A stretch of 52,129 bases of DNA from Acidobacteriota bacterium (GTDB lineage Bacteria; Acidobacteriota; Terriglobia; Terriglobales; Acidobacteriaceae), in assembly GCA_021793405.1 (NCBI GenBank), contig JAJYSV010000027.1, positions 1 to 52,129 of the forward strand. The letters run 5' to 3'. The notes under the pieces were generated by a model. That model ran no database searches, was not told where the DNA came from, and saw nothing but the letters and a program-made list of their open reading frames with translations. How positions within the stretch are numbered: the stretch's first letter is position 1; each line of letters begins with the position of its first letter. The translations under genes and the position numbers were made by a program. Positions 19,232 through 46,170 of this stretch are shown here, piece by piece.

Positions 19232-19232
19232 C

Positions 19233-26650: not shown

Positions 26651-26680
26651 CTGCGAGAGATTGAAGGAGAAACGACCGGT

Positions 26681-28427: not shown

Positions 28428-28444
28428 TTGGCATCCCACGTGCA
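28428..28444 (+). promoter_or_regulatory. Predicted sigma-54 (-24/-12) promoter of the NRPS-PKS operon
   Basis: The element TTGGCATCCCACGTGCA has GG at 28430-28431 and GC at 28442-28443 with ten bases between, a -24 box of TTGGCA and a -12 box of GTGCA, the same -12 form as at 13661-13677. It predicts a transcript start near 28455 and a leader of about 30 bases before GTG 28487. The region 28233-28427 upstream holds no gene and is A/T-rich, fitting a regulatory region. Confidence 0.6.
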
Positions 28445-28486
28445 GTTCAAGTAGCCGAAAACTGGAAGCCCTGGAGCGGTAGGCTT

Positions 28487-30565
28487 GTGAATCTCGATGC
28501 CTTGACGATCGGCTGGTACGACGCGTCGGATAAGGAAAACCTGCGGGAGCGTGCCTGTCCGTCGGCGTCCATTTCAGTCCTTACGGCGGCGCCGGGAGAT
28601 CTTCCGTGGAACGGAACTGTGCTGGAGCTTTTTTCGCAGAGCGCCCATCGTTTTTCCGGCTCCGTCGCACTCGCCTATGCGGAGCAATCGATTACCTACG
28701 GGGAATTGTGGAATTTTGCCGATGCCTTCCGCGGTCGCCTGGTCACTCAGGGAATCCAGCCGGGAGACCTGGTGGGAGTTGTTGCCGGTCGATCGCCAGC
28801 CACCATCGCTGCGATCCTCGGCATCGTGATGGCGGGCGGGTGTTACATGCCCATCGAGATCGAGGAATTTTCCGCCGCTGTTTTGGGGCAGATTCGGGAA
28901 TCGAGCGGTCTGCGATTCTGGATCGCAGATGCGAAGTTCCGGCAAATTGCCGACCCGGCGCTGTGGGAAGGATGCTCTGTTCTGGCTGTGGATGAGGTTG
29001 CGTGCCCGGAGGGTGCCGAGATGGCTCAGATCCCGGCAGTCGAGATCTGCGGGGAAAGTCCGCTGTACGTAATGTTCACTTCCGGTTCGACTGGATTGCC
29101 GAAGGGCGTGCTGGTCCCTCATCGGGCTGTGGTGCGATTGGTGGTTGGCCAGCAATTTATCGAGTTTGCGCCGACGCACACATTTTTGCTGCATTCCCCG
29201 CTGTCTTTCGACGCGTCTACGCTGGAATTCTGGGGCAGCTTGCTGCATGGTTCTCGGCTGGTTCTGGCCCCGGCGGGGCAACTGGGGCTGGATGACTATA
29301 CGCAACTGATCCGGAAGCAGGGCGTGACGACGCTGTGGTTGACCGCTGCGATGTTTCATCTTGCAGCCGAGCACACGCCGGGAATGTTTGCGCCGCTGAG
29401 GCAGCTTCTGTTTGGGGGCGATGTCATCTCGCCGCGCCATGTGGAGCGGATGCGCAACTTGTACCCCGCCTTGCGCATGGTCAACGGATACGGTCCAACG
29501 GAAAACACGACGTTCACCTGCTGCTACCAGGTACCCAGCGACTATCGCGCGGAGGGTTCGCTGCCCATCGGATTGCCGATTACGCACACCACGGTTCACA
29601 TTTTGGATGCCGAACATGCGTCGGTCGCACCCGGGCAATCGGGGGAATTGGCGGCGGGGGGCGCGGGTGTGGCGTTGGGATATCTGGGGCGGCCGGATGC
29701 TACGGGGGAACGATTTATCCCGGATACATTTTCCAGCCGTCGCGGAGCGATGCTGTACCTGACCGGCGACCGCGCCGTGGAGCGGCCCGATGGAACGATT
29801 GAGTTTCTGGGCCGGATGGATCGCCAGGTGAAAATTGCCGGGCATCGGGTGGAATTGGCGGCAGTAGAGAACGCGCTATCGGAGTCGCCTTGGGTGGTGA
29901 GCGCCGCAGTGGTCGTGTTGACCGTGCCGTCCGGAGAAAAGCAGTTGGTCGCGTGCGTCGCTTTAGCGAGCCCGATCGAGAACGCAGAACTTGCATTGCG
30001 CGCGTGGGTGCAAGCGCGGCTTTCTCGCACATCGACACCGCAGCACTGGGTGTTTCTGGAGAAGTTGCCGATCAACGCGAATGGCAAACTGGATCGCGTT
30101 GCCTTACAGAATATTTGCGAAGCTCGACTGCTTGTTTCTGCGCTTGGCAATCCGGTTTCCGCAGCTGCGAAAGATGAATCTTCCGCAGCCAGCGCAGGTG
30201 CGGCGGATGAAAACCACATCACGAATCGTCTGCAGGGAATGTGGGCAATGCTGCTGGGCCGCGCTTCCGTTGGAGCGGATGAAAACTTCTTCGACCTGGG
30301 CGGCACGTCGCTGCTGTTGATCGAGATGCATGCCAGACTCAAGGCGCAATTCGCCTCCACCCCATCGCTAGTCGAGATGTTTGAATTTCCGACACCGCGC
30401 AGGTTGGCCCAGCGACTTTTCCAAGGTCAGCAATGGAAGGGTGACATGGCAACCGCGGACCATCGCGGTCAACGCCAGCGCGCAGCCATGTTGGCGAGAC
30501 GGCCAGGATTCAGCGCAATGAAGACACCCGCGGTGGGCAGTGCCAGAGAGGATGGAACTCGTTGA
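28487..30565 (+). CDS. NRPS loading module, A-T (valine-like pocket)
   Basis: A 692-residue nonribosomal peptide synthetase with one adenylation domain (about 40-545) and one thiolation domain (about 575-645). Core motifs: YVMFTSGSTGLPKG from residue 194, LSFDASTLEFW, NGYGPTENTT, YLTGDRA and NANGKLDR with the A10 Lys; the carrier site is DLGGTSLL with Ser608. Lining the pocket up by eye against GrsA gives DALWLGGTFK, close to the published valine code DAFWIGGTFK. There is no condensation domain, so it should load a free amino acid and start the line, handing it to the KS of the next protein. GTG start with GGAG 12 bases upstream; the stop overlaps the next start (TTGA). Confidence 0.9.
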   Translation: MNLDALTIGWYDASDKENLRERACPSASISVLTAAPGDLPWNGTVLELFSQSAHRFSGSVALAYAEQSITYGELWNFADAFRGRLVTQGIQPGDLVGVVAGRSPATIAAILGIVMAGGCYMPIEIEEFSAAVLGQIRESSGLRFWIADAKFRQIADPALWEGCSVLAVDEVACPEGAEMAQIPAVEICGESPLYVMFTSGSTGLPKGVLVPHRAVVRLVVGQQFIEFAPTHTFLLHSPLSFDASTLEFWGSLLHGSRLVLAPAGQLGLDDYTQLIRKQGVTTLWLTAAMFHLAAEHTPGMFAPLRQLLFGGDVISPRHVERMRNLYPALRMVNGYGPTENTTFTCCYQVPSDYRAEGSLPIGLPITHTTVHILDAEHASVAPGQSGELAAGGAGVALGYLGRPDATGERFIPDTFSSRRGAMLYLTGDRAVERPDGTIEFLGRMDRQVKIAGHRVELAAVENALSESPWVVSAAVVVLTVPSGEKQLVACVALASPIENAELALRAWVQARLSRTSTPQHWVFLEKLPINANGKLDRVALQNICEARLLVSALGNPVSAAAKDESSAASAGAADENHITNRLQGMWAMLLGRASVGADENFFDLGGTSLLLIEMHARLKAQFASTPSLVEMFEFPTPRRLAQRLFQGQQWKGDMATADHRGQRQRAAMLARRPGFSAMKTPAVGSAREDGTR

Positions 30566-33500
30566 GCGATACTCAGCAAAACGCGGTGGCCATTATCGGG
30601 ATTGCGGGCCGTTTTCCGGGTGCGGAAAATGTGGAGCAGTTATGGCAGAACCTGTGCGCCGGTCGGGAGTCCATTCGCACGATTCCAGAGTGGGAACTGG
30701 AAGATGGCCTGACGGCGACGCAGCGGAGCCGGGGAAAATATGTTGCGGCGCGAGCGGTGCTCAAAGATGTCGACTTATTCGATGCGGAATTCTTTCACAT
30801 TCTGCCGCGTGAAGCCGAAGTGACCGATCCGCAGCAACGCGTGCTGATGGAGTGCGCGTGGGAAGCGCTGGAAGATGCCGGCTACGATCCGGCGCGGATT
30901 GCGGGCAACGTTGGCGTGTTCGCCGGATCCAGTATCAACACCTATCTCCTGCTGCACCTTGCTTCGGATCCCTCGTTTCGCGAGGAATTCACGCGCTCCT
31001 ATCAAGTGGGTTCCTTCCCGACGCTGGTCGGCAATGGGCACGACTTTTTGGCGACGCGCATCAGTTACAAGCTGAACCTGCGCGGGCCGGCGATGACGGT
31101 GCAGTCCGCATGTTCGACGTCGCTGCTGGCGGTGGCGCAGGCATGGCAGAGCCTAGTGAACTACCAGTCGGACCTGGCGCTGGCGGGTGGCGTGTCCATT
31201 TCTTTTCCGCAGAAGCGCGGATATTTTTATCAGGATGGCGGCATGGTTTCTGTGGACGGCCACTGCCGTCCGTTCGATGCTGCCGCGACCGGAACGGTTT
31301 TTGGCGGCGGCGCCGGCATGGTCCTGCTGAAGCGCGCCGAAGAAGCAATTGCCGATGGGGACCATATTTACGCGCTGCTGCTGGGTGCCGGGGTCAACAA
31401 CGACGGATCGGATAAAGTCGGCTATGCCGCTCCCAGCCGCAAAGGGCAGACCGATGCCATTGCGATGGCATACGCGGTGGCGGGTGTCGATCCGGCGTCT
31501 GTCGATTATGTCGAATGCCACGGTACCGGCACTCCGCTGGGCGATCCAATCGAAGTGGCAGCATTGGCGGAGGCGTTCGGAGCGGGTGCGCCGCGTACGG
31601 CTCCGTGTCTCCTGAGTTCCGTGAAGGGAAATATTGGGCATCTGGATGTGGCGGCGGGAGTGACGGGCCTGGTGAAGGCGGCGTTGTCGCTCGATCGCGA
31701 GCGAATTCCTGGAACGCTCCACTACAGCGAGCCGAACCCGCGATTGGATCTTCCGAAGCTGCCGTTCATTGTTGCCAGTACGGCAACCGAATGGCCCAGA
31801 GGTCGAGCGATTCGGCGGGCTGGAGTCAGCGCCTTCGGCTTTGGCGGCACCAATGTTCACGTGGTGCTGGAGGAAGCTCCAGTGGTAACGACGAGCGCTG
31901 CGCAACGTCCGCAGCAACTGCTTTGTATGGCGGCGCGCACGTCTACCGCGCTGGAAGCGCAATGTGCCCGCCTGGCGGACTCTATGGAGCGGGCCGATCC
32001 GGTGACATTTTCTTTGCCCGATGTAGCCTATACGCTGGCAGTCGGCCGCCGCGCCTTTGCCCATCGCCTGGCGGTCGTCGCTAATACCCGTGAGGAATGC
32101 ATCGCACGGCTTCGAAATCTGGACGCGCTGCGGTCGCGCGCGGCGATTGCGAAGGAAGCGCCTCGCGTTGCCATGTTGTTTCCGGGGCAAGGCACGCAAC
32201 ATCCGGGCATGGCCGAGGATATCTATCGCACGGAACCATTCTATCGAGAGATCGTGGATCGTTGCTGCAAGCATCTGGTGTCTCTGGCCGGCTTGGATCT
32301 GTTGCCGGTGCTGTTTCCGAAGATTGCTGATCCGAATGATAGCAAGGCGTGGGACGATGCAGCGCAAGCGCTGGAGCAGACTCGCTACGCGCAACCGGCG
32401 CTGTTCGTCACCAGCTACGCCCTGGCGAAGCTCTGGATGCACTGGGGTGTGCAGCCGGCTTGTCTGGTCGGACACAGTGTTGGAGAGTTAGTTGCCGCCT
32501 GCCTTGCCGGGGTCTTCTCACTCGAAGACGCGCTGCTCTTTGTTGCGCGTCGAGGCGAATGGATGCAGGAGCTGCCGACGGGAAGCATGTTGGCGGTGCG
32601 TATGCAATCGCAAGAGTTACAAAAGATTCTGCCAGCCAATCTTTCCGTCGCGGCGGTCAATTCTCCAACACTGACGGTCGCATCCGGACCAACCGCTGAG
32701 GTCGATCTGCTGGCGAAGCAGTTGGAGCGTGAACATATTGCATGTCGTCGGCTGCGTACCTCGCATGCGTTCCATTCTGCGATGGTGGACCCCATTGTAG
32801 AGCGTCTTCGCGCCGCGCTCAGTTCGATGGAATTGAATGAACCGAAACTGGAAATACTCTCGACGGTGACGGGCGATACATTGACGCATGCCGAAGCCAC
32901 ATCGCCGGAATACTGGGCCCGGCATAGCCGCGTCGCGGTGAATTTCAGCGCAGCGGCGAATACGCTGGTGCGCGAAGGATTTGAAATCCTGCTTGAAGCT
33001 GGAGCCGGAGACACTCTGATCACGCTGGTTCGACAGCACTTGCCACGTGGAAGTAAGACGATGGTCGCATTCCCCTCGCTACCCGCGGAGAGCCTCCACC
33101 CGGCGGGTCCGCAGAAATCATCGTGGGACATATTGGCTGGCACCGTGGGCGCATTATGGTCGCACGGAATCCCGGTGGATTGGGATGCCTACTATGCCGG
33201 TGAACATCGAAGGCGCGTCGCGTTGCCGACGTACCCATTCGAGCGCAAGCGGCACTGGGTGGAGGCGAAAAGGGAGTTGCGTGCGACGGATGCGCCATTC
33301 GTCGCCGAGCCAACGGAGGCCCCACCATTGAAAATAGTTGAGAACATCCCGCCAGAAGAGGGGAGCGGAATTGACATGAATTTGAATGTTTCGGAGAAAG
33401 TAATGACACCAACTGCGAATGCAACGATAGACAACGCGACAGCGACAATCATCGAAGGTCGGAGCGCACAAATCTGCCGGGGACTTGTCAGTCTGGTGGA

Positions 33501-36500
33501 AGATCTTTCCGGTTTGGAGTTGACTGCGGAGCAGTATGATTTGAGCTTTCTCGAATTGGGATTCGATTCTCTCTTTTTGACCCAAGTGGCTCAAAAGATA
33601 CAGAACAAGTACGCGGTGAAGATCGCTTTCCGCCAATTGCTCGACAATCTCAGCTCCATTCGGCTGGTCGCGGAATATCTCGACGCGCAGATGCCGCAAA
33701 CTTCGATGCCAACGGCACCGGTCAATCAAGTCCAGGAAACTCTGGCCAATCAGCCACGTCCGGCTGCGGCTGCCGACGCAACCGGAGTGCATGGATCATT
33801 GGCAGAAGTTCCGCCGAATGGATCGCCCGTTGAAGGCGCGCGGTCCGGCTTCGTGGCGGATGGACAAATTGCGATCCTGATGCAGCAACAACTACAAGCA
33901 GTCACGCAATTGATACAGTCTCAGTTGCAGATTTTAAGTGGCGGGCAGACTGCCAGCGTCGCAGCATCGAGAGCTATTGCGCCGACCCAGCATTTTGTGG
34001 AGAAATCCTCGGCAGCAACGCGGGCGGAGGAGCCGGTGGCAAGCGCACCTCCTCCGCCCACGCCGGCCGAAGGAAAAATGCTTTGTAAACAGTCAGCTTC
34101 GAGCGGCCAGCATGCGATGACCGCGGAGCAGCAGCGCTTTCTGGAGCAGCTTATCGAGCGCTACTGCAAAAAAACCGCCCAGTCGAAATCCTTCGCGCAG
34201 CAGCATCGTCGCACCCTCGCCGATCCGCGCGGAGTCAACGGGTTCCGGCCGGAATGGAAGGAAATGGTCTACAGTCTCGTCTCCCCTCGCAGCAAGGGAT
34301 CGAAGTTTTGGGACATTGATGGCAATGAATATATCGATCTGGTCAATGGCTTTGGGCCCACGATGTTTGGGCACGCTCCCGACTTCGTCGTCAAGGCGCT
34401 TCAGGAGCAGATACAAGAGGGTTTCGCGATCGGACCGCAAACCCCGTTGGCTGGCAGAGCCGCGAATCTCCTGACTGAACTGACCGGCACGGAGCGAGTG
34501 ACATTTTGCAACACAGGCTCTGAGGCGGTGATGGCAGCGATGCGTGTGGCCCGAACGGTTACCGGCAGAGATAGAGTTGTATTTTTTGCCGGCGATTATC
34601 ACGGGCAGTTTGACGAAGTACTGGTCAAGCAGTTGAAGCGGAAAGGCGACTTTCTGACGCAGCCTGCGGCTCCGGGAATTCCTCGCGAGAATCTTGGCAA
34701 TGTTACGGTACTCGACTACGGCACGGAGGAATCCCTCCGCTACATTGAGCGACACGCGAGTGAGTTGGCGGCGGTGTTGGTCGAACCTGTCCAGAGCCGC
34801 CACCCAAAGGTGCAGCCCAAGGAATTTTTGTCTCGCGTACGGGAGATTACAAGGCAGTCCGGGACTGCATTCATTTTTGACGAGGTTGTCACCGGGTTTC
34901 GGATTCATCCACGCGGGGCGCAGGGCTACTACGGCATCGACGCCGATCTGGTGACCTACGGCAAGGTCGTCGGCGGTGGAATGCCGATCGGCATACTGGC
35001 GGGCAGAGCCGCATTCATGGACGCGCTCGACGGCGGCCCATGGGAGTTTGGCGATGCCTCGGTACCTGAAGCCGGAGTTACTTTCTTTGCCGGTACGTTT
35101 GTTCGGCATCCGCTGACGATGGCCGCACTGTGCGCGACATTGGAGCATATTCGCGATGCGGGGGAGGCTCTGTACGATACGCTCAACGAGCGTGCGTCGC
35201 GCTTTGGCATGCGGCTGAATGAGGTGTTTACCCGCCTGGGAGTTCCGCTGCAGCTTGAGACCTGCGGCAGCGTCATGTATGTTGGAGTCCCTTTAGACGT
35301 GCGCTTCGGGGGGCTGTTGTTCTATCTGCTGCGCGAGAAAGGTATCTTCGCTCTGGAAGGATTTCCACTGTACCTGACCACGGAGCACAGCGACGCAGAT
35401 GTGGATCGGATCCTGCGCGCGTTCGAAGAAAGCATCGTCGAGATGCAATCGTGCGGATTTTTCCCGGGGCATCTCGGGGTCGGAGGGATGCCTTCCGTGT
35501 TGGCTTCCGCGCCGCAACCGGAGAAAGAAACTGTAGCGGTTACAGAAATCCCTCTGACCGAGCCGCAATTGGAAATCATGCTGGCTGCCCAGGTCTCTGA
35601 CGATGCCAATTGCGCATTCAATGAGTCGTTTCGCCTGAGTCTTGACGGGGCGCTGGATGTGGAAACGCTGAAGCTGGCTTGGCGATCTCTGGTGGATCGG
35701 CATGATGCGTTGCGCATGTCTCTGGTGACGGCGGGCGATCGAATGCGAATCCATCGTGACCGCCTGATTGCCATGCAGGATGTGGATCTTTCCGGCCATT
35801 CAGCCAGCGCGCAGCAAGATTTACTCGACACGATGATCATCGCGGAAGGAAAGCAGCCCTTTGAATTGGTCCAGGGTCCTCTGGTACGCGCCCAGCTGGT
35901 AAAGCTGGCGCCGGAGAAGCATTTGCTGTTGATCACGGCGCACCACTTGATCTGCGACGGATGGACGGTCAACGTGCTGGTTGATGAACTTGGAAAAATG
36001 TATTCGGCGGCGCTTCACCATAGATCGCCGGAACTGTCTCCTGTCTTGCCATTTTCTCAATATGCACTCGACGTTCAGCAGTCGCAATGGCGAGAGCAGC
36101 AGGAAAGCGATCTTGCATACTGGAAGCAGCAGTTGACACCTGAGCCGGAATTGCTGACGCTGCCGAGCGATCGCAGCCATCCCGCAGCTCGCAGCTTTGA
36201 AGGATCCACCTACATTGCGGAGTTCCCGAAAGCGTTTGTAGCTGCGCTGCGCAAGGCTGGCGCGCAGTCTGGTTGCACGCTGTTCACGACGCTGCTTGCG
36301 GGCTGGCAGATTTTGCTGTGGAGATTGAGCGGCAACCTGGACCCGGTCACGCTGATTCCGTCTGCGGCGCAGTCGCTGATGGATGACAAGGTTCTGGTGG
36401 GTCATTGTGTTCATTTGTTGCCGATTCGGGCGGCACTCACACCCGAAATGGCCGCCGCAGACTATATGCGCGCGTTGAAGCCGGCCGTGCTCGATGCCTA

Positions 36501-38712
36501 CGAGCACCAGCACGCCACCTACGGCAGCATCGTACGGGCGCTGACGCCGCGACGCGAGTCCGGCCGACTGCCGCTAAGTGAAATTCAGTTCAACCTGGAA
36601 CAAGTGGGCCGGTGCGCTTCCTTTGAAAGCATTCAGACAGAAGTTCGGGCGAATGGAAAGCGCGCGGTCAACTTCGACCTTTTCCTGAACATCGTCGATA
36701 CCGGAAATGGATTGCGGCTGGAGTGTGATTACAGCACGGGACTATATGACGAATCCACGGTTGCGTGTTGGATCCGCTGCTATCGTGCTCTGCTGGAGTC
36801 GATGATTTCCAATCCGGCGCAAAGTGTCGCCAAACTGGAGATTCTCGGACCCGAACTCCGGACCTATTTATTGGAAACCTGTAATGCAACAGCCACTGCG
36901 ACGAATGCTGCGGAAAATGTTCCGGAACTGATTCATGCAGCTTTTGCATCTATGCCGGAGCAGCTAGCTGCGGACTTTTATGGCATGGAGCTCACGCGCG
37001 CGCAGTTGACGGAGCAGAGTGATCGCCTGGCGTCATGGTTAATGCGCAATGGAGCCGGACTCGGATCCCTGGTTGGCATCTATATGGACCGCTCGCTGGA
37101 CATGCTGGTGGCGATGCTGGGAGTGATGAAGGCGGGCGCGGCATATGTGCCGCTCGATCCCATGTTTCCGCCGGCCCGCATCGCTCAAATCGTGGAGGAG
37201 ACAAATGTGCCTGTGATGATTACACTCTCCGGCCATTTGGATGCGCTGCCACAATCGCAAGCCAAAGTGATCGCCCTGGATACGGAAGCAGACAAGCTGG
37301 CGGTGGAACCGAAGGTTGCGCTGCCGAAGATTTCCGCCGACGCGCGCGCGTATGTGATTTTCACGTCCGGGTCGACAGGTCGGCCCAAGGGAGTCGAGGT
37401 CTGCCATGGATCCGTAGTCAATCTACTGGCGGATACGGCGCAACGCCTGGAAATGAAACCGCAGGACCGGCTGCTTGCTGTTACAACCTTGTCATTCGAT
37501 ATAGCGGTGCTGGAAATGCTGTTGCCGCTAGTGTCGGGAGGAACCGTGGTGATTGCGCATCGCGACGACGTGGCGGACGGCGCGCAGTTAGTGGAACTGT
37601 TGCAGGCGACGCGCGCGACTGTGCTGCAGGCCACTCCAGTGACATGGAGAATGCTGACCGAGCAGGGATTTCAACCTCCCGCCGGCTTCAAGATGTTGTG
37701 TGGCGGCGAGGCGTGGACGCCGGCGATGGCCGATCAGTTACTGGTCAGCGGCGGGCGTCTGTGGAATATGTACGGGCCGACGGAAACGACGGTGTGGTCC
37801 TCGATCACGGAAGTGAAACGAGGGGCGACCCGCATGACTATCGGGCCACCGATCGCCAACACCCGATTCTATGTGCTGGATCGAGCCTTGCAGTTGGTCC
37901 CGCCGGGTGTATCCGGGGAACTGTTGATCGCAGGGGATGGGGTGGCGCGAGGATATTTCAATCGCCCGGAATTGACGGCAGAGAAGTTTCTGCTGGATCC
38001 CTTCAAGCCCGGAGAGCGGATGTACCGCACCGGAGATGAGGTTCGCCAACTGCCGGATGGCCGCATTGAGTTCCTTGGCCGGCTGGATCAGCAGATCAAG
38101 CTGCGCGGCTTCCGCATAGAACTGGGCGACGTGGAAACGGCTCTGCGAGGTTTGCCCGGCGTTCGCGACGCGGTTGCCGTGCTGCGGCCCGATGCCAGCG
38201 GGGAGGCGATTCTGGTTGGTTACTATACGGGCGGTGACAATTCCACTCAAGCAGAATTGAAGCGGGCGCTCGGCAGCCAACTGCCCGCATACATGATACC
38301 GACGATTCTGAAGCCGCTGGACAAGCTGCCTCTGACACCGAACGGCAAGATCGATCGTCGCGCGCTGCCGGAGCCGCGTGCAGGCGCGGAGGTCGAGAAA
38401 GCGGAGTTCTTTGAGCCGGGCACGCGGACAGAAACAATTCTGGCGGAGATTTTTTGCGAGGTCCTGGGATGTTCGCGTATTAGTATTCGAACCAGCCTCC
38501 TCGATCAGGGCGCGGACTCCTTACGCATGTTTCAGATTGCCTCGCGCGCACATCGCCGCGGATTCGCGGTGAGCGCGAAGCAGTTAATGCAGTTGCATAC
38601 GGTGGAAGCGGTAGCCGCGGCCATCGACGCAAGCGAAAGCAGCCTGCAGGCGGTACCGGTGTCTGCGGTGCGGTTAGAGCGGGTATCGAGAGAAAATTAT
38701 CGGGTTGGTTAG
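30562..38712 (+). CDS. Hybrid PKS-NRPS: KS-AT-ACP-aminotransferase-C-A-T (malonyl, glycine-like)
   Basis: A 2716-residue protein starting at TTG 30562 inside the previous stop. Domains: KS (about 8-430) with Cys184, His320 and His360; AT (about 535-850) with GHSVGE Ser639 and HAFH at 735-738, the malonyl-CoA form; ACP with LGFDSL Ser1003; a ~200-residue Gln/Ala/Pro linker; a class III PLP aminotransferase (about 1215-1640) with TYGKVVGGGMPIG, Lys1468; a C domain with HHLICDG at 1794-1800; an A domain (about 2130-2620), YVIFTSGSTGRPKG from 2264; and a T domain with GADSL. No KR, DH, ER or methyltransferase fits between AT and ACP. The second A pocket reads DILQLGMVWK, close to the glycine code DILQLGLIWK. 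The KS-AT-ACP-AMT-C-A-T order is that of MycA/iturin-type beta-amino acid synthases, without their acyl-ligase start. Confidence 0.93.
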   Translation: MSDTQQNAVAIIGIAGRFPGAENVEQLWQNLCAGRESIRTIPEWELEDGLTATQRSRGKYVAARAVLKDVDLFDAEFFHILPREAEVTDPQQRVLMECAWEALEDAGYDPARIAGNVGVFAGSSINTYLLLHLASDPSFREEFTRSYQVGSFPTLVGNGHDFLATRISYKLNLRGPAMTVQSACSTSLLAVAQAWQSLVNYQSDLALAGGVSISFPQKRGYFYQDGGMVSVDGHCRPFDAAATGTVFGGGAGMVLLKRAEEAIADGDHIYALLLGAGVNNDGSDKVGYAAPSRKGQTDAIAMAYAVAGVDPASVDYVECHGTGTPLGDPIEVAALAEAFGAGAPRTAPCLLSSVKGNIGHLDVAAGVTGLVKAALSLDRERIPGTLHYSEPNPRLDLPKLPFIVASTATEWPRGRAIRRAGVSAFGFGGTNVHVVLEEAPVVTTSAAQRPQQLLCMAARTSTALEAQCARLADSMERADPVTFSLPDVAYTLAVGRRAFAHRLAVVANTREECIARLRNLDALRSRAAIAKEAPRVAMLFPGQGTQHPGMAEDIYRTEPFYREIVDRCCKHLVSLAGLDLLPVLFPKIADPNDSKAWDDAAQALEQTRYAQPALFVTSYALAKLWMHWGVQPACLVGHSVGELVAACLAGVFSLEDALLFVARRGEWMQELPTGSMLAVRMQSQELQKILPANLSVAAVNSPTLTVASGPTAEVDLLAKQLEREHIACRRLRTSHAFHSAMVDPIVERLRAALSSMELNEPKLEILSTVTGDTLTHAEATSPEYWARHSRVAVNFSAAANTLVREGFEILLEAGAGDTLITLVRQHLPRGSKTMVAFPSLPAESLHPAGPQKSSWDILAGTVGALWSHGIPVDWDAYYAGEHRRRVALPTYPFERKRHWVEAKRELRATDAPFVAEPTEAPPLKIVENIPPEEGSGIDMNLNVSEKVMTPTANATIDNATATIIEGRSAQICRGLVSLVEDLSGLELTAEQYDLSFLELGFDSLFLTQVAQKIQNKYAVKIAFRQLLDNLSSIRLVAEYLDAQMPQTSMPTAPVNQVQETLANQPRPAAAADATGVHGSLAEVPPNGSPVEGARSGFVADGQIAILMQQQLQAVTQLIQSQLQILSGGQTASVAASRAIAPTQHFVEKSSAATRAEEPVASAPPPPTPAEGKMLCKQSASSGQHAMTAEQQRFLEQLIERYCKKTAQSKSFAQQHRRTLADPRGVNGFRPEWKEMVYSLVSPRSKGSKFWDIDGNEYIDLVNGFGPTMFGHAPDFVVKALQEQIQEGFAIGPQTPLAGRAANLLTELTGTERVTFCNTGSEAVMAAMRVARTVTGRDRVVFFAGDYHGQFDEVLVKQLKRKGDFLTQPAAPGIPRENLGNVTVLDYGTEESLRYIERHASELAAVLVEPVQSRHPKVQPKEFLSRVREITRQSGTAFIFDEVVTGFRIHPRGAQGYYGIDADLVTYGKVVGGGMPIGILAGRAAFMDALDGGPWEFGDASVPEAGVTFFAGTFVRHPLTMAALCATLEHIRDAGEALYDTLNERASRFGMRLNEVFTRLGVPLQLETCGSVMYVGVPLDVRFGGLLFYLLREKGIFALEGFPLYLTTEHSDADVDRILRAFEESIVEMQSCGFFPGHLGVGGMPSVLASAPQPEKETVAVTEIPLTEPQLEIMLAAQVSDDANCAFNESFRLSLDGALDVETLKLAWRSLVDRHDALRMSLVTAGDRMRIHRDRLIAMQDVDLSGHSASAQQDLLDTMIIAEGKQPFELVQGPLVRAQLVKLAPEKHLLLITAHHLICDGWTVNVLVDELGKMYSAALHHRSPELSPVLPFSQYALDVQQSQWREQQESDLAYWKQQLTPEPELLTLPSDRSHPAARSFEGSTYIAEFPKAFVAALRKAGAQSGCTLFTTLLAGWQILLWRLSGNLDPVTLIPSAAQSLMDDKVLVGHCVHLLPIRAALTPEMAAADYMRALKPAVLDAYEHQHATYGSIVRALTPRRESGRLPLSEIQFNLEQVGRCASFESIQTEVRANGKRAVNFDLFLNIVDTGNGLRLECDYSTGLYDESTVACWIRCYRALLESMISNPAQSVAKLEILGPELRTYLLETCNATATATNAAENVPELIHAAFASMPEQLAADFYGMELTRAQLTEQSDRLASWLMRNGAGLGSLVGIYMDRSLDMLVAMLGVMKAGAAYVPLDPMFPPARIAQIVEETNVPVMITLSGHLDALPQSQAKVIALDTEADKLAVEPKVALPKISADARAYVIFTSGSTGRPKGVEVCHGSVVNLLADTAQRLEMKPQDRLLAVTTLSFDIAVLEMLLPLVSGGTVVIAHRDDVADGAQLVELLQATRATVLQATPVTWRMLTEQGFQPPAGFKMLCGGEAWTPAMADQLLVSGGRLWNMYGPTETTVWSSITEVKRGATRMTIGPPIANTRFYVLDRALQLVPPGVSGELLIAGDGVARGYFNRPELTAEKFLLDPFKPGERMYRTGDEVRQLPDGRIEFLGRLDQQIKLRGFRIELGDVETALRGLPGVRDAVAVLRPDASGEAILVGYYTGGDNSTQAELKRALGSQLPAYMIPTILKPLDKLPLTPNGKIDRRALPEPRAGAEVEKAEFFEPGTRTETILAEIFCEVLGCSRISIRTSLLDQGADSLRMFQIASRAHRRGFAVSAKQLMQLHTVEAVAAAIDASESSLQAVPVSAVRLERVSRENYRVG

Positions 38713-38780
38713 GCAGGAGAAGGAAAAAACGTCAAGCAACAACGGGATTTCTATTCCATGGTTGCTTATAGAGCCAGTAC

Positions 38781-41700
38781 TTGAATCGGGATTATAAGAA
38801 CGTGTCGACCTTGGTGAGCTTGTCAAAATCTACGAACGAAGAAGCGATGGCTGGCGCGATCTACGCGATGCCCGCCACGCCGATCCAGGTGCGCCTGTGG
38901 AATCTGAACAAGGTGACGCCGGATCCGGCGTGGAACATCGCGGTTCGCTTTCGTTTGTCCGGGCCGCTGGATCGAGACAAGTTCGAACACGCGATGCAGA
39001 CGCTGACAACCCGTCACGAGGCTCTAAGGACGTCATTTGAAATGCAGTCGGGAGCTGTGATTGAACGGATCGCCGCACAGGTCACGCTGCCGGTGGAGTG
39101 GTGCGATCTGCGTTCCATGCACGCCGAAGCGCAAGCCGCCGAGGTCGCGCATCTATCGCTTGACCATGCGAGCCAGATCATGTCGCTGCAGCACGCTCCA
39201 CTGTTGCGGGTCCGAGTGCTGCGATTGGCCGAGGAGGAGAACATCCTGGTCTGGAACGCTCATCACAGTATTTGCGATGGGTGGTCAGTAGGGCTGCTGG
39301 CGAGCGATCTGATGGATTGCTACGGTGAATTGCTGCACGGCAGCGAACCTGCGGTCCGCGATTCGCTCGACTATGGCGATTATGCGGTCTGGCTCGACGC
39401 GCAACGTAAGACTCCCGAATATGAAGCGCACAGGAGTTACTGGAAACAGCGCCTTCAGGGACTTCGTGTTTCCGCGTTACCGGCCGCATGGCGCAATTCC
39501 GAAAGCACAGGGGATGCTGCCGCGATTCAATCCGTTCTGTTGCCGCGCACACTGACGGACTCAATTCTTTCAATCGCGCAGCGGCACGATTCGACATTTT
39601 TCCATGCTGTGCTCGCAGCGTTCGCACTTCTGATGCGGGTGCATCAATCATCGACAGAGGTCGTCGTGGAAACGCCGATCAGCGGGCGCGATCAATCGGA
39701 ACTCGAAGGGGTTGTCGGAGCATTTGTGAATACGCTGGCGTTGCGCGTCGGCGTAGACGCCGACATGCGGTTCAGCAGCCTCCTGCACGACGTTCGCGAT
39801 CTGGTTGCCGATTCTTTCGAGCACGCGCAGTTCCGATATGAGGATTTGCTGGCCGATCTGGAACAAGACGGCACGATTGCATCGTCGGAAAAGCCGCTGA
39901 CTCCCGTGGCCTTCATTTGTCAGCAGGATTTTGTCCGCCCCATCACCGCAGGCGGGATCGATCTGACAGCCGTACCATCGGTGAGCCCGGGCGCGCTTCG
40001 TCCACTCACGGTGTTCATGGTCGAGCGTGCCGACGGATGGCGTCTTTCCTGTGAAGTTGACAACCGGATCGTGTCTCGGGCGGCCGGTTCTGTTCTGCTG
40101 GAAGACTTCCAGCGATTGCTGCGGGGAATCGTCGCGACTCCAGAGGGACTGACAGCACAGCTTGTCACACAAGCTGGTCTTGCGCCCATGGATTCTGTGG
40201 AGGCAAGCGTCGGTGAGGGCGATTGGCCGGCGAGCGGCAACCTTGCGGCGAGGAAAGAAAATGCGCACGGTGGGGTCAGAATTCCCGCGACAGAATTTCA
40301 GCAGCGCTTCTGGCGGCTGGACTCGCTGAACCGCGGGGGAATTGCCTTCCACGTGCGGATCCGTCTGGAGTTGAAGGGTGTATGCAATGTGGAGGCGCTG
40401 GCCGAGGCGATCGCGCACGTGGCTCGCCGGAATGAGATTTTGCGGACGACACTGGAAGAGACAGACGACCAGATCTGGCAGGTGATTCACCCGGAGTTAC
40501 CGATTGACTTTCAGTTTCAAGTCTCCGAGACATTGGCTCCGGATGCATTGCGTTCCCCCGCCCAGCGGCTCGCCGATCAAGCGATTCTAGATCGCGAGGG
40601 ACAGGAGGGATTTTCTCTGTCGAACGGACCGCTGTTCCGCGTGCGCGTGCTGCAGCTCGAAGCAGATCGCATCTGGCTGGCGATTACGCTCTCCCACGGA
40701 ATTGTCGATGGCTGGTCGAGCGGACTTTTCCTGCAACAGTTGCAGCAGGCGTATGAACAGATTGTTTTTGGCGGGAAAGGCGAGAAAGTCTCGCCGGTGC
40801 AATTTTCCGTGTATGCGCGAATGGAACAGAAGTTGTTGGCCAGCCCCGAAAAGGACCGCAGGCTGGCGTGGTGGCAGGAATATCTCGGCGGAGTTTGGTC
40901 ACCACTCGAGTTGCCGCGAGACACCGCGGAATCTGTAGACGACGTCGGAGATGCTCGCGCACGGCTTGAGGTTGCGATTCTGGATCGCGAGACGGTGGCA
41001 AAGGTGCGGAGTTTTGCGCGCGAATGCCAGACGACGGTATTCGCAGTGTACGGAGCGTTGTTCCAGTCGCTGTTGTTCCGGTATAGCCGGCAAAACGACA
41101 TACTCTTTTTGACACCGCACGCGAATCGCACCGACAATACGGAAACGATTATGGGACCGCTGGCGGGTCCTATCTGTTTGACGGCGCACATCGGCGCCGA
41201 GACAACGTTCCGCGAACTGGTGACGCGGTTCGGACAGGAATCGATGGACGCGATGGAGCACGCTCTGCCGCTGAACCTGATTACTCCACTGGTCGATATG
41301 CGGGTGGGACGGCAATATCACCCGCTGAATCAGATCACGTTTTTCTATCAACGGGCGTTTGTGCATGACATGGAATGGAAGGATCTGCGAGTTGCATCGT
41401 TGCCAGACGTTCCATCTGTGACCGGCAGTGAGTGGCAATTGGGCGTGGTGGAGAGGGATGCGGGGATGTTTCTGGAGTTCCTGTACGATACGACGCTGTA
41501 TTCGCAGGCAACGATTCAGACGGTTCAGCGACACTACGCGCATCTGCTGGCCCACGCCGTGAAGACACCCGATACAGCGCTGTCGCAGCTCGAAATTCTA
41601 ACTCCAGAGGAGAAGGACCAATATTCCCGCGCCAAGTCGCTGCCGCCGGTGATGGAAAGTCTGTTGCAGCGCAAACCGGTGGTTGCCGCGGAAACGGCTG

Positions 41701-42914
41701 CGCCGGTTGAGCGGGAAACCGTTGCGCCGGCCAGAAGGGACGCGGCTACTCAAAGCGAGCGCGACATGCTGCGCATATGGCGGCAGGTTCTGAAAATCGA
41801 AGACCTGGATATGGAGTCGAACTTCTTCGATCTCGGGGGACACTCGCTGTTACTGGCCAGACTCCAGATCGTGATGAAGCGCGAGTTTAATGTGCAATTG
41901 ACGGCGGCGGAGGTATTCCGGCAACCGACGATTGGCACCCTGGCGGCATGGTTGGAGCAGGCGCGATCGACGACACCGACGGCAAAGCCGTCTTCCTCGC
42001 GTCCATGGGAACAGAATCCGCACATTGTGCCGATCCAGCCGCTTGGCGCAGGTCACCCCATCTTTGTAATCTCGCAAAGCATGATCTTTCGCACCTTCGC
42101 CGCGGAGTTGGGTACGGACCAGCCCGTGTACGCGGTACAAACGCTCGAACAGGATGCCGCGACCATGGCTTCAGCCACTTTCGAGCAGATGGTCGATTTC
42201 TATGTTCGACTGATCCGTGAAGTGCAACCGTCGGGGCCCTATCGAGTGGCAGGCTGGTGCGTTTCCGGATGGATTGCCTACGGCGTGGCTCGTCGACTGG
42301 AACAACTGGGAGAACAGATTGAGATGGTGCTGATTCTCGATGCGTGGGCCCCCGACTATTGGAGCGGCCAGCCGTTGATGCGTCGTCAGGTCATGCTGAC
42401 CATCTATCATGGGCTGCGGCTTCGGCGAAAGATTCGTCCTCCGAGCCAAATCGGTCAGCCGCAATCGAGTTCCTTCCGGAGAAGCCTGCAGGAGTTCGCC
42501 GTGGCGGCGGGAAAATTAATAGCGCATGTTTTGCGTTTGCAGACTCCCGCAGAGACGGGTCAGGCAGAGGAAGCGAGGCTCGACAATCAATTGCAGGAGA
42601 CTGCGCGGCACGCTTCCAGGTCCGGGCCTCTTGTGGGCCAAGCCCTGGTGCTTCGCAGTGAAGAGGAACCGGGGGGGCCAATGCTGGCCGACGATATGGG
42701 CTGGTCCCACGTGATCGGCAGACCGGTGCGGGTGGACGTAGTGCCGGGCAATCATCACGAGATTTTTAATCTTCCTGGGGCGCGGATGATGGCCCTTCGT
42801 GTCCGCGAAATGTTGGGTGTGGCCCCGATTTCTCTTCAGGGGAAAAAAGCCCCGGCGAGCAACGTTCCACCACCTCAGATTCGTAACGGCAGCGTGCCAC
42901 GGGTGGAGGGTTAA
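38781..42914 (+). CDS. NRPS terminal protein, C-C-T-TE without an A domain
   Basis: A 1377-residue protein. The first condensation domain (about 25-470) has intact HHSICDG (H161, H162, D166). The second (about 500-960) reads SHGIVDG, keeping the catalytic second His (H639) and D643 but with Ser638 for the first His. A thiolation domain has LGGHSL (Ser1022) and a type I thioesterase follows (about 1075-1345). The thioesterase nucleophile motif is GWCVSG with Cys1160 instead of Ser; a late His in GNHHEIFN fits the triad. No A-domain motif occurs, so the T domain must be loaded in trans or stay unloaded while a C domain transfers the chain. TTG 38781 is used; ATG 38847 is an alternative, and ribosome sites are poor for both. 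The stop overlaps the hydrolase start (TAATG). Confidence 0.9.
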   Translation: MNRDYKNVSTLVSLSKSTNEEAMAGAIYAMPATPIQVRLWNLNKVTPDPAWNIAVRFRLSGPLDRDKFEHAMQTLTTRHEALRTSFEMQSGAVIERIAAQVTLPVEWCDLRSMHAEAQAAEVAHLSLDHASQIMSLQHAPLLRVRVLRLAEEENILVWNAHHSICDGWSVGLLASDLMDCYGELLHGSEPAVRDSLDYGDYAVWLDAQRKTPEYEAHRSYWKQRLQGLRVSALPAAWRNSESTGDAAAIQSVLLPRTLTDSILSIAQRHDSTFFHAVLAAFALLMRVHQSSTEVVVETPISGRDQSELEGVVGAFVNTLALRVGVDADMRFSSLLHDVRDLVADSFEHAQFRYEDLLADLEQDGTIASSEKPLTPVAFICQQDFVRPITAGGIDLTAVPSVSPGALRPLTVFMVERADGWRLSCEVDNRIVSRAAGSVLLEDFQRLLRGIVATPEGLTAQLVTQAGLAPMDSVEASVGEGDWPASGNLAARKENAHGGVRIPATEFQQRFWRLDSLNRGGIAFHVRIRLELKGVCNVEALAEAIAHVARRNEILRTTLEETDDQIWQVIHPELPIDFQFQVSETLAPDALRSPAQRLADQAILDREGQEGFSLSNGPLFRVRVLQLEADRIWLAITLSHGIVDGWSSGLFLQQLQQAYEQIVFGGKGEKVSPVQFSVYARMEQKLLASPEKDRRLAWWQEYLGGVWSPLELPRDTAESVDDVGDARARLEVAILDRETVAKVRSFARECQTTVFAVYGALFQSLLFRYSRQNDILFLTPHANRTDNTETIMGPLAGPICLTAHIGAETTFRELVTRFGQESMDAMEHALPLNLITPLVDMRVGRQYHPLNQITFFYQRAFVHDMEWKDLRVASLPDVPSVTGSEWQLGVVERDAGMFLEFLYDTTLYSQATIQTVQRHYAHLLAHAVKTPDTALSQLEILTPEEKDQYSRAKSLPPVMESLLQRKPVVAAETAAPVERETVAPARRDAATQSERDMLRIWRQVLKIEDLDMESNFFDLGGHSLLLARLQIVMKREFNVQLTAAEVFRQPTIGTLAAWLEQARSTTPTAKPSSSRPWEQNPHIVPIQPLGAGHPIFVISQSMIFRTFAAELGTDQPVYAVQTLEQDAATMASATFEQMVDFYVRLIREVQPSGPYRVAGWCVSGWIAYGVARRLEQLGEQIEMVLILDAWAPDYWSGQPLMRRQVMLTIYHGLRLRRKIRPPSQIGQPQSSSFRRSLQEFAVAAGKLIAHVLRLQTPAETGQAEEARLDNQLQETARHASRSGPLVGQALVLRSEEEPGGPMLADDMGWSHVIGRPVRVDVVPGNHHEIFNLPGARMMALRVREMLGVAPISLQGKKAPASNVPPPQIRNGSVPRVEG

Positions 42915-44335
42915 TGCGCCCACTCGAACTGGCCGGATTCCTGCTTGCGACTCTGCCCGTGCTGGCGATGCTGGCACTGCTCCCGATACAGGCGGGCCTC
43001 GCAGCCGCAGCGGTGTCGTGCGGAATCCTGCTGGCGGCGGCCGTGTGGCTGGGCGCGTACTGGCAATTGATTCCGCTCTATGTGGGCGTGGCGCTTGGGC
43101 TGTCATTGCTGCTGTGGATGAAGCAGCAGCGGCCGCGCTGGATTCGCGTCACGGTTGCGGCATCCGTGACGTGCCTGCTGGTTCTGACTGCGGCGTTGAC
43201 GCATATCCTTCCCATGTTTTCTCTGCCGAGACCGAGTGGCTCGTATGCAGTCGGCACTCGGGTCGTGCATCTCGTCGATCCGGTTCGGATGGAGACTCAT
43301 GTCGCGGGGACGCCTCGACCGCGCGAAATCATGGTCCAGGTATGGTATCCAGCGACGCCGCACGGTCAGCATCTCGCAAGCTATCGAAGGCGCCGCGAGA
43401 CGACTTGGCTATCCAGCTACATGGAAGTGCTGTGGACGCATTCGTATCAAAATGCCCCAGTGGCGACGAGCGGAGCGCCTTTCCCGGTGCTGCTGTTCAA
43501 CCCGGCGTGGGGTGGACAGCGTACGCAAAATACGTATCAGGTGGAAGATCTGGCCAGCCATGGGTTCATCGTGGCCGGGGTGGATCATCCGTACAACTCG
43601 GGACCGATAGCGTTTCCGGATGGCCGCATTATTCGACCTGGAGGCATGCGTGATATTTCTGACTTCCGCAATACCACGGTCGCGCAGCAATTTGCCATTG
43701 GCGACACGGAGGTACGGATTGAGGCGGGAGATGATGTTCTGGCGCTGAATTATTTGTCCGGAGCCGACTTGGATCCGAAAAGCTCGTGGTTTCATCGTGT
43801 CAATGCCGACGATGCCGGTGCTTTCGGGCACTCATTCGGCGGAGCGGTTGCGGCGCAGGTCTGCTACGAGGACCCCAGGGTAAAGGCGGCGCTGAACGAG
43901 GATGGTTGGGGGTTTGGCGATGTAGCAACGCACGGGTTGGATAAGCCATATTTCGTCTTGAACGACGACCCGGGGAAAGTTCCCGCGCAATTGAACCCGA
44001 CCGATGTGCAGGCTCGCCGAGAGACCGAGCTGGACGATGAAGATAGTGACAACCTGAAGCGATCGATGCATCGATACGGAGGGTATCTCCTAACGATTCT
44101 GGGATCGAAGCATGAAGATTTTTCCGACCGTCCACTGTATTCCCCCCTACGCCGGTTGACCGACGCTGGAACGATTTCTCCGCAACGCATGCATGCAATC
44201 GTCGAAGCGTATACTCTGCAATTTTTTTCGCATACTTTGCTTGGCAAGGCAGCCCCATTGCTTGCCGCGAACCACAGCCCTTACAAGGAGGTGCAGTTTG
44301 AGAACTGGTTCGTCAAGAATGCATCGACCCGCTAA
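42914..44335 (+). CDS. Membrane-anchored alpha/beta hydrolase (PAF-acetylhydrolase-like)
   Basis: A 473-residue protein. The first ~115 residues hold about four hydrophobic helices. A PAF-AH/dienelactone-hydrolase-like domain follows, with PVLLFNPAWGG for the oxyanion side, GFIVAGVDHPYN, the nucleophile elbow GHSFGG (Ser307), an Asp in FVLNDDPG or LNEDGWG, and a His in LGSKHEDFSD for the triad. It starts in a TAATG overlap with the synthetase, so it is translationally coupled and belongs to the biosynthetic operon. Possible roles are hydrolysis or editing of the product, self-protection by cleaving it, or release. The membrane part suggests action at or across the inner membrane. The role is inference. 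Confidence 0.82.
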   Translation: MRPLELAGFLLATLPVLAMLALLPIQAGLAAAAVSCGILLAAAVWLGAYWQLIPLYVGVALGLSLLLWMKQQRPRWIRVTVAASVTCLLVLTAALTHILPMFSLPRPSGSYAVGTRVVHLVDPVRMETHVAGTPRPREIMVQVWYPATPHGQHLASYRRRRETTWLSSYMEVLWTHSYQNAPVATSGAPFPVLLFNPAWGGQRTQNTYQVEDLASHGFIVAGVDHPYNSGPIAFPDGRIIRPGGMRDISDFRNTTVAQQFAIGDTEVRIEAGDDVLALNYLSGADLDPKSSWFHRVNADDAGAFGHSFGGAVAAQVCYEDPRVKAALNEDGWGFGDVATHGLDKPYFVLNDDPGKVPAQLNPTDVQARRETELDDEDSDNLKRSMHRYGGYLLTILGSKHEDFSDRPLYSPLRRLTDAGTISPQRMHAIVEAYTLQFFSHTLLGKAAPLLAANHSPYKEVQFENWFVKNASTR

Positions 44336-44345
44336 GGGAACGTTC

Positions 44346-45098
44346 CTACGCGCCGAGCCGGAAACATTGGAGAGAGGATCTCTCAAACTTTCCCGTTGCG
44401 TCTCGGAGCGCGAGGGTTCCAACGATGTCTTCGGCAGGACTCAGCTCGACCAGCAGCCAACCAGCCGCGATGGGCGCTTGCGGACGCAGGCCAAGCAATG
44501 CCGCGGGACGCTGCGGATGGACTTCGACGTCAAAGCCGTCGAGCGGCAGGTTGAGGCCGAGACCCTCGCCCTTGAGCAGCGCTTCCTTGCTGGTCCAGCA
44601 GCGATAAAAGCCTGGCAGCCATTGCTCCGGGAGAAGAGTTCGCAGGGTGAGCAACTCGCGCGAGGAGAAATGGTGTTCGGCGACATCGGCATCGATCGGG
44701 CGGATGCGCTCCATGTCGATTCCCAGCTCATAGTCGCGGCTGACGGCAAGCGCCGCGATTCCCGCGCTGTGGGTCAGATTGAATCGGATGCGCTGCGGGT
44801 TTTTTTCGGGCTCGATTTGCGGCTTGCCGTAGGCGTTGGTCGAAAACGATATCTCCGCACCGCTGAGACCGAGATAGCCGCCGAGCAGCGACCGCATCGC
44901 GGAGTGGGCGCGGACATAGCGGTCGCGATCCTGCGGGAACACGAATCGCTGAGCCCGACCAGTCTCTGCCTCGCTGAGAATTTCCCAGTCACGCGGCAGG
45001 GGCGGGAAGTCGAGATCCCACGCCCACACGTGGACCTGATTCGCGGAGAGCGGCGGAACGGGTTCGGTGCGCGGCCAGAAATAGTTTTGTGCATTCAT
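44346..45098 (-). CDS. Sfp-type 4'-phosphopantetheinyl transferase
   Basis: A 250-residue enzyme if started at ATG 45098; the frame is open to TTG 45164 and no start has a clear ribosome site. Family motifs are QVHVWAWDLD, FNLTHSAGIAALAVS, the Mg-binding LGIDMERI (D128, E130) and CWTSKEALLKGEG (168-179), and the two-domain length is that of Sfp rather than AcpS. It converts carrier domains to their holo form by adding phosphopantetheine from CoA. With three T/ACP serines and one more ACP in the line, it is the expected helper gene. It converges on the hydrolase with 10 bp between and diverges from the oxygenase gene. Confidence 0.9.
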   Translation of the reverse strand: MNAQNYFWPRTEPVPPLSANQVHVWAWDLDFPPLPRDWEILSEAETGRAQRFVFPQDRDRYVRAHSAMRSLLGGYLGLSGAEISFSTNAYGKPQIEPEKNPQRIRFNLTHSAGIAALAVSRDYELGIDMERIRPIDADVAEHHFSSRELLTLRTLLPEQWLPGFYRCWTSKEALLKGEGLGLNLPLDGFDVEVHPQRPAALLGLRPQAPIAAGWLLVELSPAEDIVGTLALRDATGKFERSSLQCFRLGA

Positions 45099-45195
45099 TC
45101 GCGTGTTCGTTCGATGCAGCGGTTTCGGCAGATCCCTCGCTGCCGGTTCCAGCTGATAATCCAAAACTCAATTCAGTTGCTAGCTTCAGAGAAAA

Positions 45196-45213
45196 TGCCG
45201 ATGTCAATCGGCA
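45196..45213. promoter_or_regulatory. Inverted repeat just upstream of the JmjC-type oxygenase gene
   Basis: TGCCGAT and ATCGGCA are exact 7-bp arms four bases apart. The repeat ends 16 bases before ATG 45229 and four bases before the ribosome site GAGGTGA, between divergent genes. It may be an operator or a leader hairpin that hides the ribosome site. Confidence 0.4.
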
Positions 45214-45228
45214 GTACGAGGTGACAGT

Positions 45229-46170
45229 ATGTCAACGACAACAAGTACCATGGCCCCGCCAATTGTGAAAGAAGTTTCCCACGCGCCAGAACGCCTTTAT
45301 ACCGCAGATAGGGCGAAATTCGCAGAGAATTTCAACAAGCGCCCGTTCCTTCTGGAGCATTCGCTCAGCAATCATCCGGCATTTACTATGGATCGCTTGC
45401 ATAGCCTGCTGGAGCGCTCGTTGCCGATCCCAAACAAAGTGTATTGGAATGCGGGCAAAAAGCGCATCGACCAACGCTGGAAGGATCGGCCGGGCCGTGA
45501 TTTTTCCATTGAAGAGGCATTTCGCCGTATTCGTGAGACCGACGCCTGGATCATTATCTTTGGCGCGGATCGCGATCCCGAGATCCATGATTTGCTGGAG
45601 CAAGGGCTGGCCGAAGTGCAGGAGATGACGGGGATTCCCCTGAGTCGCGAGGAAAAAAGCAGGCAGTCGATCATCTTTATCACTTCGCCGCATCGCATCA
45701 CGGAGTACCACATCGACAAGGAATGCAGCCTGCTGCTGCAGATCCATGGGAAAAAGACCATCCATGTGTTCGATCAAACCGATCGGGAAGTGTTGACGGA
45801 AGAAGAACTGGAGAGCTTCTGGAGTTTCGACAACAACGCCGCGACCTATAAGGCGCATCTGCAGAATCGCGCCACATCGTTTTTGCTGGAGCCGGGAAAG
45901 GCGGTGCATATTCCAATAAATGCTCCGCACTGGCTGGAAAATGGCGACGATATTTCGGTGTCTATCAATCAGAATTTTGAATACAAGAATGACCGGTTGG
46001 CAAATATTTATCGGGCCAACTATTACATTCGCAAGATGGGGATGAAGCCATTGCCGCCGGGACAGTCTCGCCTGCGTGATCGGATGAAGGGTCAAGGCAT
46101 GCGTCTGCCGGTTGCGCTGGCACGGGAATTGCGGGAATTGAAGGACAAAATGGAGAGGAGAAAGTCATGA
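45229..46170 (+). CDS. JmjC/cupin-8-type Fe(II) oxygenase
   Basis: A 313-residue soluble protein with a good ribosome site (GAGGTGA). A double-stranded beta-helix oxygenase core is indicated by YHIDKECSLLLQIHGKK, where H161 and D163 would bind iron and a following Lys would hold 2-oxoglutarate, and by VHIPINAPHW, whose H234 would be the third ligand. This HxD...H arrangement is that of cupin-8/JmjC hydroxylases; homologues sit beside NRPS genes as beta-hydroxylases of carrier-bound amino acids or as protein hydroxylases. A tailoring oxidation of the NRPS-PKS product is the favoured guess. The last ~70 residues are basic and helical. Substrate unknown. Confidence 0.75.
   Translation: MSTTTSTMAPPIVKEVSHAPERLYTADRAKFAENFNKRPFLLEHSLSNHPAFTMDRLHSLLERSLPIPNKVYWNAGKKRIDQRWKDRPGRDFSIEEAFRRIRETDAWIIIFGADRDPEIHDLLEQGLAEVQEMTGIPLSREEKSRQSIIFITSPHRITEYHIDKECSLLLQIHGKKTIHVFDQTDREVLTEEELESFWSFDNNAATYKAHLQNRATSFLLEPGKAVHIPINAPHWLENGDDISVSINQNFEYKNDRLANIYRANYYIRKMGMKPLPPGQSRLRDRMKGQGMRLPVALARELRELKDKMERRKS

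Follow-up and report, generated by a model that had tools for sequence, protein, structure and literature searches.

What does a hybrid assembly line of nonribosomal peptide synthetase (NRPS) and polyketide synthase (PKS) make when it sits beside an exopolysaccharide (EPS) locus, and do the two work together? The DNA analyzed here (the window) is a 52,129-nt stretch from an Acidobacteriota bacterium (contig JAJYSV010000027.1 of GenBank assembly GCA_021793405.1), a single contig of a 4.6-Mb draft genome (labeled G000), with such a cluster at positions 28428 to 46170. An initial annotation had described this cluster as orphan and self-contained. Our analysis confirms the hybrid NRPS-PKS, which appears to be intact, and indicates that its partnership with EPS genes is supported by recurrence and co-inheritance. 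The reading that we tentatively prefer, at a little short of an even chance, is that of an intact line making a short β-aminated peptide and acting in partnership with the Wzx/Wzy-type EPS locus around it.

Pfam gives the domain order A-T / KS-AT-ACP-AMT-C-A-T / C-C-T-TE (A, adenylation; T and ACP, carriers; KS, ketosynthase; AT, acyltransferase; AMT, class III aminotransferase; C, condensation; TE, thioesterase), the same as initially annotated, followed by a hydrolase, a phosphopantetheinyl transferase (PPTase), and a JmjC oxygenase. The three synthase genes lie on the plus strand. The loading NRPS (28487..30565) has A at 28631-30088 and T at 30227-30418. The hybrid PKS-NRPS (30562..38712) has KS at 30580-31725, AT at 32176-33036, ACP at 33532-33690, and AMT at 34276-35349, followed in its second half by C at 35542-36855, A at 36949-38349, and T at 38440-38625. 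In the third synthase (38781..42914; the true start may lie anywhere from 38781 to 38868), Pfam recognized C1 at 38868-40160, C2 at about 40281-41645, T at 41769-41954, and TE at 42078-42767, and no A domain. These genes had been called overlapping, which holds for genes 1 and 2 (4 nt) and not for genes 2 and 3, since gene 2 ends at 38712 and gene 3 starts at 38781 or later; genes 3 and 4 overlap by 1 nt. Relatives with 65 to 86% identity are found in five other genomes, so the cluster is not a product of chance.

On motif reading, KS residues C184, H320, and H360, AT residue S639, and AMT residue K1468 are all present, as are the carrier serines and the A-domain motifs; the condensation motifs are HHLICDG and HHSICDG, with SHGIVDG in C2, where the second His is retained. 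Because these catalytic motifs are present, the inactivating lesions in the KS, AT, or A domains that the initial annotation had named as grounds for abandoning it are not seen. Position by position in GrsA numbering, the code of the first A domain is DALWLGGTF(K), which we take to specify Val, and that of the second (in gene 30562..38712) is DILQLGMVW(K), which we take to specify Gly; the AT motif HAFH is presumably of the malonyl type. Pfam recognized no ketoreductase (KR), dehydratase (DH), or enoylreductase (ER) domain in the synthases and no methyltransferase domain between AT and ACP. The loader passes the amino acid adenylation cutoff (347.9 versus 317.4 bits), and the best Protein Data Bank (PDB) match of the AMT is the MycA aminotransferase (6kfm; 427 bits; E, 8e-127), which, with the order KS-AT-ACP-AMT and then C-A-T, bears out the likeness to a MycA/iturin-type β-amino module drawn earlier. 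Taken together, the Val and Gly codes, the malonyl AT, the absence of KR, DH, and ER, and the MycA-type AMT suggest a predicted core of 3,4-diamino-5-methylhexanoyl-Gly, a small amine-rich peptide. The domains and motifs are thus those expected of the functional hybrid line, with amino acid loader and MycA-like β-aminating module, that had been predicted. Because of this loader and module, a small, polar, peptide-like product is a better guess than a lipopeptide, as had been held, and it remains a guess from sequence.

The description of the cluster as an orphan did not stand. A genome scan with an AMT alignment found at least 519 stretches encoding a relative, the best 80 of which were analyzed. 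The KS-AT-T-AMT order is kept in all 80 loci, as far as the contig reaches, in one frame or split, and related A-T/KS-AT-T-AMT/C-A-T clusters occur in many phyla. A DILQ (Gly-like) code is found in the next A domain of 48 of the 74 loci that have such a domain; the first A code varies among related loci (Val-, Leu-, Thr-, and Pro-like, by our reading), as does the third protein (C-C-T-TE, C-T-TE, C-A-T-TE, or C-TE). Bradyrhizobium rifense and B. centrolobii share the first-four-gene order of the window (A-T / KS-AT-T-AMT-C-A-T / C-C-T-TE / PAFAH), and the B. rifense flank also carries Cupin_8/JmjC and PPTase genes. In the AMT tree, the window falls in a 34-row set (support, 99) together with Alphaproteobacteria, two Betaproteobacteria, two Gammaproteobacteria, and other Acidobacteriota; its AMT is 50 to 60% identical to those of loci from other phyla and 72 to 83% identical to those of Acidobacteria (60% for one short Terriglobia contig). 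The same draft genome holds a second large hybrid NRPS-PKS region (contig C29, about 35.9 to 62 kb; L030/L031), the best KS-AT of which is 49% identical to that of the window.

Nor is the cluster self-contained, as an EPS locus recurs with it in many lineages, though not in all. Linkage was scored in 50 named genomes as an AMT cluster within 30 kb of a PF02397 priming sugar transferase (G109, with two AMT clusters, was scored by the nearer one). At least 29 of the 50 were linked, compared with an expectation of 2.1 based on gene numbers and genome sizes, and in the AMT clade of the window at least 15 of 17 were, the exceptions among the matches listed being Marinobacterium (L042) and Reyranella (L070). 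Since many of the 50 genomes are congeneric, we give most weight to the count by genus-level group (at least 21 of 40) and to a control with other condensation-domain (NRPS) loci, which lay within 30 kb of PF02397 in at least 2 of 16 cases, both in the Bradyrhizobium EPS locus. This control used 27 genomes chosen from the 50, including 22 of the at least 29 with linkage; the 16 control loci are our own grouping of other C-domain matches, from which G091 C20, having its own AMT, was excluded. In the two Bradyrhizobium genomes (G061, C78, 109 to 114 kb; G062, C34, 54 to 59 kb), the same EPS locus is flanked on its opposite side by a second NRPS of about 2,100 amino acids. Nine neighborhoods, all picked from linked genomes, were studied in depth, and eight of them have a homologue of the Wzz-type protein of the window near the cluster; it was not found in Caballeronia. 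Of 50 plasmid records, 4 annotated ones were examined. On three of these plasmids (two from Rhizobium and one from Aliiroseovarius), the cluster sits amid EPS genes, namely, pyruvyl transferase, GH16, flippase, sugar/glycosyltransferase, Wzz, export, and DegT aminotransferase genes, not all in each.

Co-inheritance was followed within the genus, using 10 genomes, several of them incomplete. An orthologue of the priming transferase (82 to 95% identity) is present in exactly the five genomes with the NRPS genes of this cluster (G000, G002, G006, G008, and G009); among the others, four have only paralogues of 35 to 37% identity and G001 has none. An ATP-grasp ligase gene is found in four of the five carriers and in none of the five other genomes, and the JmjC gene in the four carriers that show no visible decay of the synthase; UDP-glucose dehydrogenase occurs in 7 of the 10 genomes, carriers and noncarriers alike. 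In the fifth carrier, G009 (C260, 11017-17023; L029), a fused remnant in one frame consists of the AMT end, C (HHLICGG), A, T, and T-TE and, judged by eye, the final residues of the hydrolase; the end of a P450-like coding region was likewise seen by eye upstream. Here, the JmjC gene was not found and the ATP-grasp gene has an internal stop, yet the priming transferase is 95% identical. This pattern, from one draft genome, fits an add-on to the polysaccharide that was lost as a set.

In the window, the EPS locus adjoins the cluster, as initially annotated. Its core (14725..22883, plus strand) encodes, by Pfam, a Poly_export/SLBB protein, a Wzz-type copolymerase (a weak match of 26.1 versus 25.5 bits), a BcsQ-like ATPase, the priming sugar transferase (19233-20618, plus strand), and GT4 and GT2 glycosyltransferases; 15435-16832, inside the core, has no Pfam match. 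Hexapeptide transferase, GT4, and UDP-glucose dehydrogenase genes (24744..28123, plus strand) lie directly upstream of the loader; the last precedes the loader in G008 and G002 as well, and UGD-family genes adjoin Bradyrhizobium clusters. Beyond the JmjC gene follow a GT2 gene (46392..47633, plus strand) and, on the minus strand (47716..50135), genes for GT4 (47716-48912) and the ATP-grasp ligase (48903-50135). GT2 is found near ATP-grasp also in G006 and in two further Acidobacteriota, G144 and G301, both of which have an ATP-grasp homologue close to the cluster and beside GT2/GT4, as in the window. A priming transferase, a (weakly matched) Wzz, an outer membrane exporter, and several glycosyltransferases of a Wzx/Wzy-type system are hence present; no Pfam match to the polymerase Wzy was seen among the window open reading frames (ORFs) scanned, and ORF 322-1896 has about eight transmembrane segments. 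Farther upstream, 5062-9480 encodes 402- and 486-amino-acid proteins with similar N termini and a 545-amino-acid protein, all without a Pfam match; the 545-amino-acid protein has homologues beside Rhodanobacter and Luteibacter clusters.

The gene after the third synthase (42914..44335, plus strand) encodes a PAF-AH/alpha-beta hydrolase (Pfam) with a GHSFG motif and, by hydropathy, about four transmembrane segments; homologues adjoin Bradyrhizobium, Labrys, and Acidobacteriota clusters. In Rhizobium locus L132, a gene with a glycan-related GINT1_N domain (27175-28776) follows C-T-TE at the position of the PAF-AH gene of the window; this domain was matched by 4 of 53 pooled flank proteins. The PPTase gene (44346..45164, minus strand) belongs to the ACPS superfamily (Pfam/NCBIfam), and its best NCBIfam match is HetI, below the HetI cutoff. 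The product of 45229..46170 (plus strand) is predicted to be a JmjC (Cupin_8) Fe/2-oxoglutarate (2OG) oxygenase. Its Cupin_8 match is weak (27.1 bits versus a cutoff of 27.4), and phmmer found no match among PDB sequences. The H161/D163/H234 triad and the 2OG lysine K176 are invariant across 12 aligned rows, which represent 11 distinct genes (rows L066 and L121 are one and the same Caballeronia gene), and an AlphaFold model built with the alignment (pLDDT, 85.8) has among its best PDB structure matches YcfD, FIH, and NO66, JmjC hydroxylases with a double-stranded beta-helix fold. Invariant residues and confident model support the identity initially proposed.

The TE has Cys in place of Ser as its nucleophile (GWCVSG, at about 42258). 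The same holds for 21 of the 23 TEs in the AMT clade of the window, the window included; Ser TEs are found in most loci outside that clade. The best PDB match of the TE is AB3403. Four related loci (L066, L070, L074, and L086) have a C-TE third protein in which no T motif was recognized; the line may thus be able to do without its last carrier.

From these features, we infer the following route. The A-T protein would load Val, and KS-AT would add a malonyl unit; with no KR, the β-ketone would pass to the MycA-type AMT to give 3,4-diamino-5-methylhexanoyl, to which C-A-T would join Gly. C-C-T-TE may then add or transfer one further unit that is not loaded by a local A domain, and the chain would depart from the TE via an acyl-S-Cys enzyme, a form well suited to an amine nucleophile. 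Hydroxylation of the peptide would fall to the JmjC enzyme. The peptide would most likely become amide linked to a sugar within the EPS repeat, by action of the Cys-TE, of C2, or of the ATP-grasp ligase, and exit the cell together with the EPS. Covalent attachment is suggested by the Cys-TE, by the sugar-linked partners (ATP-grasp in the window and DegT aminotransferase on the three plasmids), and by the absence of any transporter gene recognized by Pfam between the synthases and the JmjC gene in the window.

Several observations weigh against such a partnership. Outside the AMT clade of the window, linkage falls to at least 14 of 33 genomes, and on the Spirosoma linguale plasmid pSLIN02 (L134), the fourth examined, a related adenylation/AMT synthase gene lies among copper resistance genes and not EPS genes. 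A holdout of 16 additional Acidobacteriota that encode an AMT relative (together with the genome of the window, 17 of the 297 sampled) gave linkage in only 3 (G144, G301, and G246), or two of seven genera, against an expectation of about 0.7 from the same formula. Neighborhoods of 20 to 40 kb were examined in 7 of the 16, the 3 linked and 4 unlinked ones. The wider look for EPS genes was post hoc, after the PF02397 test had failed: the stretches examined in unlinked G338 (40 kb) and G146 (20 kb) have no EPS-like genes, and G308 and G354 have glycosyltransferase-like genes nearby, G354 also an export gene, mostly as weak matches. Within the genus, carrier G002 has no ATP-grasp match. Both Bradyrhizobium loci and G301, G308, and G338 have a Ser TE, so the Cys nucleophile is not essential. 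No flippase was recognized by Pfam among the window ORFs scanned, nor did we recognize a peptide-attaching enzyme, and no structure for the polysaccharide is known to us. The holdout in particular shows that linkage is strong in some lineages and weak in others: it is strong in the genus of the window and in Alphaproteobacteria and patchy elsewhere.

The same observations feed the best-surviving alternative, a serious possibility that we nevertheless do not expect to hold: a free small molecule (an antibiotic, protease inhibitor, metal binder, or signal), with nothing attached to sugar, whose genes travel and are coregulated with EPS genes for life on surfaces or in biofilms. The assembly line is complete, including a TE; many loci have no nearby priming transferase among the matches listed (21 of 50 genomes and 13 of 16 in the holdout), and in S. 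linguale copper genes are found instead; LuxR-type and response regulators lie near some loci; and a vicinal diamine could bind metals. Against this alternative, besides the lack of an exporter gene between the synthases and the JmjC gene in the window, no small-molecule-type exporter is annotated next to the synthases on the three EPS-linked plasmids, one of which has a UgpC ATPase about 13 kb away. On these plasmids, the DegT genes are interleaved, in the window ATP-grasp and glycosyltransferase genes follow the cluster, and in G009 the NRPS, JmjC, and ATP-grasp genes are lost or damaged while the EPS priming gene is retained.

That EPS loci are integration hotspots and the synthase unrelated cargo is unlikely. 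EPS loci are variable in general, and the patchy pattern, with 10 changes of linkage state on the AMT tree and the low holdout count, speaks for this explanation, but it is weakened by the rarity of PF02397 near other NRPS loci of the same genomes, and it does not sit well with linkage recurring in more than half of the genus-level groups or with JmjC, ATP-grasp, and priming transferase tracking the NRPS genes in the genus. A new producer of a known β-amino lipopeptide or cyanopeptide of the iturin or microcystin type, for which the homology of the AMT to MycA might speak, is highly improbable and was rejected on loader type and domain content: it has an amino acid loader and no fatty-acyl ligase, one ACP ahead of the AMT, two A domains in all, and no C-methyltransferase domain. 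The AMT is 44.9% identical to BamA, below the identities to loci of other phyla and Acidobacteria given above.

Beyond the window, the partnership of NRPS-PKS and EPS genes may extend to a cross-phylum NRPS-PKS class making vicinal-diamine peptides that are covalently attached, as a positively charged side group, to Wzx/Wzy-dependent EPS; this broader claim we consider possible and on balance doubtful. The literature searched, whose coverage leaves out most subscription journals, yielded no account of this kind of link. Were the product part of the coat, nonribosomal chemistry would be a general route to amine-decorated bacterial polysaccharides, the amines would alter charge, adhesion, and metal binding, and a large set of NRPS-PKS clusters otherwise read as makers of free metabolites would be explained. 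A free product, too, could be sought where the linkage points, in biofilm matrices formed by rhizobia, Acidobacteria, and other bacteria.

Among known systems, the β-amino module of MycA and BamA (mycosubtilin and bacillomycin) has the arrangement KS-AT-ACP-AMT-C-A-T. The window shares this order and a homologous AMT but differs in having an amino acid A-T in place of an acyl-ligase loader, a single ACP, a short line, and an EPS context. McyE and NdaF (microcystin and nodularin) carry KS-AT-ACP-AMT-C-A-T on one polypeptide, as does the window, which by description is set apart by its different starter and by having no C-methyltransferase domain. Also similar are unnamed clusters (for example, Bradyrhizobium L035/L036 and Rhizobium CCGE532 and SL42) with the same domain and first-gene order, often EPS linked; across the unnamed A-T/KS-AT-T-AMT/C-A-T/(C)T-TE clusters, the third protein and first A code depart from those of the window. 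As for the TE, one report describes Cys-dependent thioesterases as less common and names those of ObiF, SulM, and AB3403 (PMC11298585), whose Cys in place of Ser the window TE shares. By the same account, the window TE (GWCVSG) lacks the Gln-Cys-Asn motif of SulM, and its Asp stands shortly after the Cys (LILDAW), unlike the relocated Asp of ObiF and SulM (PMC11298585); in our alignment, this LILDAW Asp aligns with AB3403.

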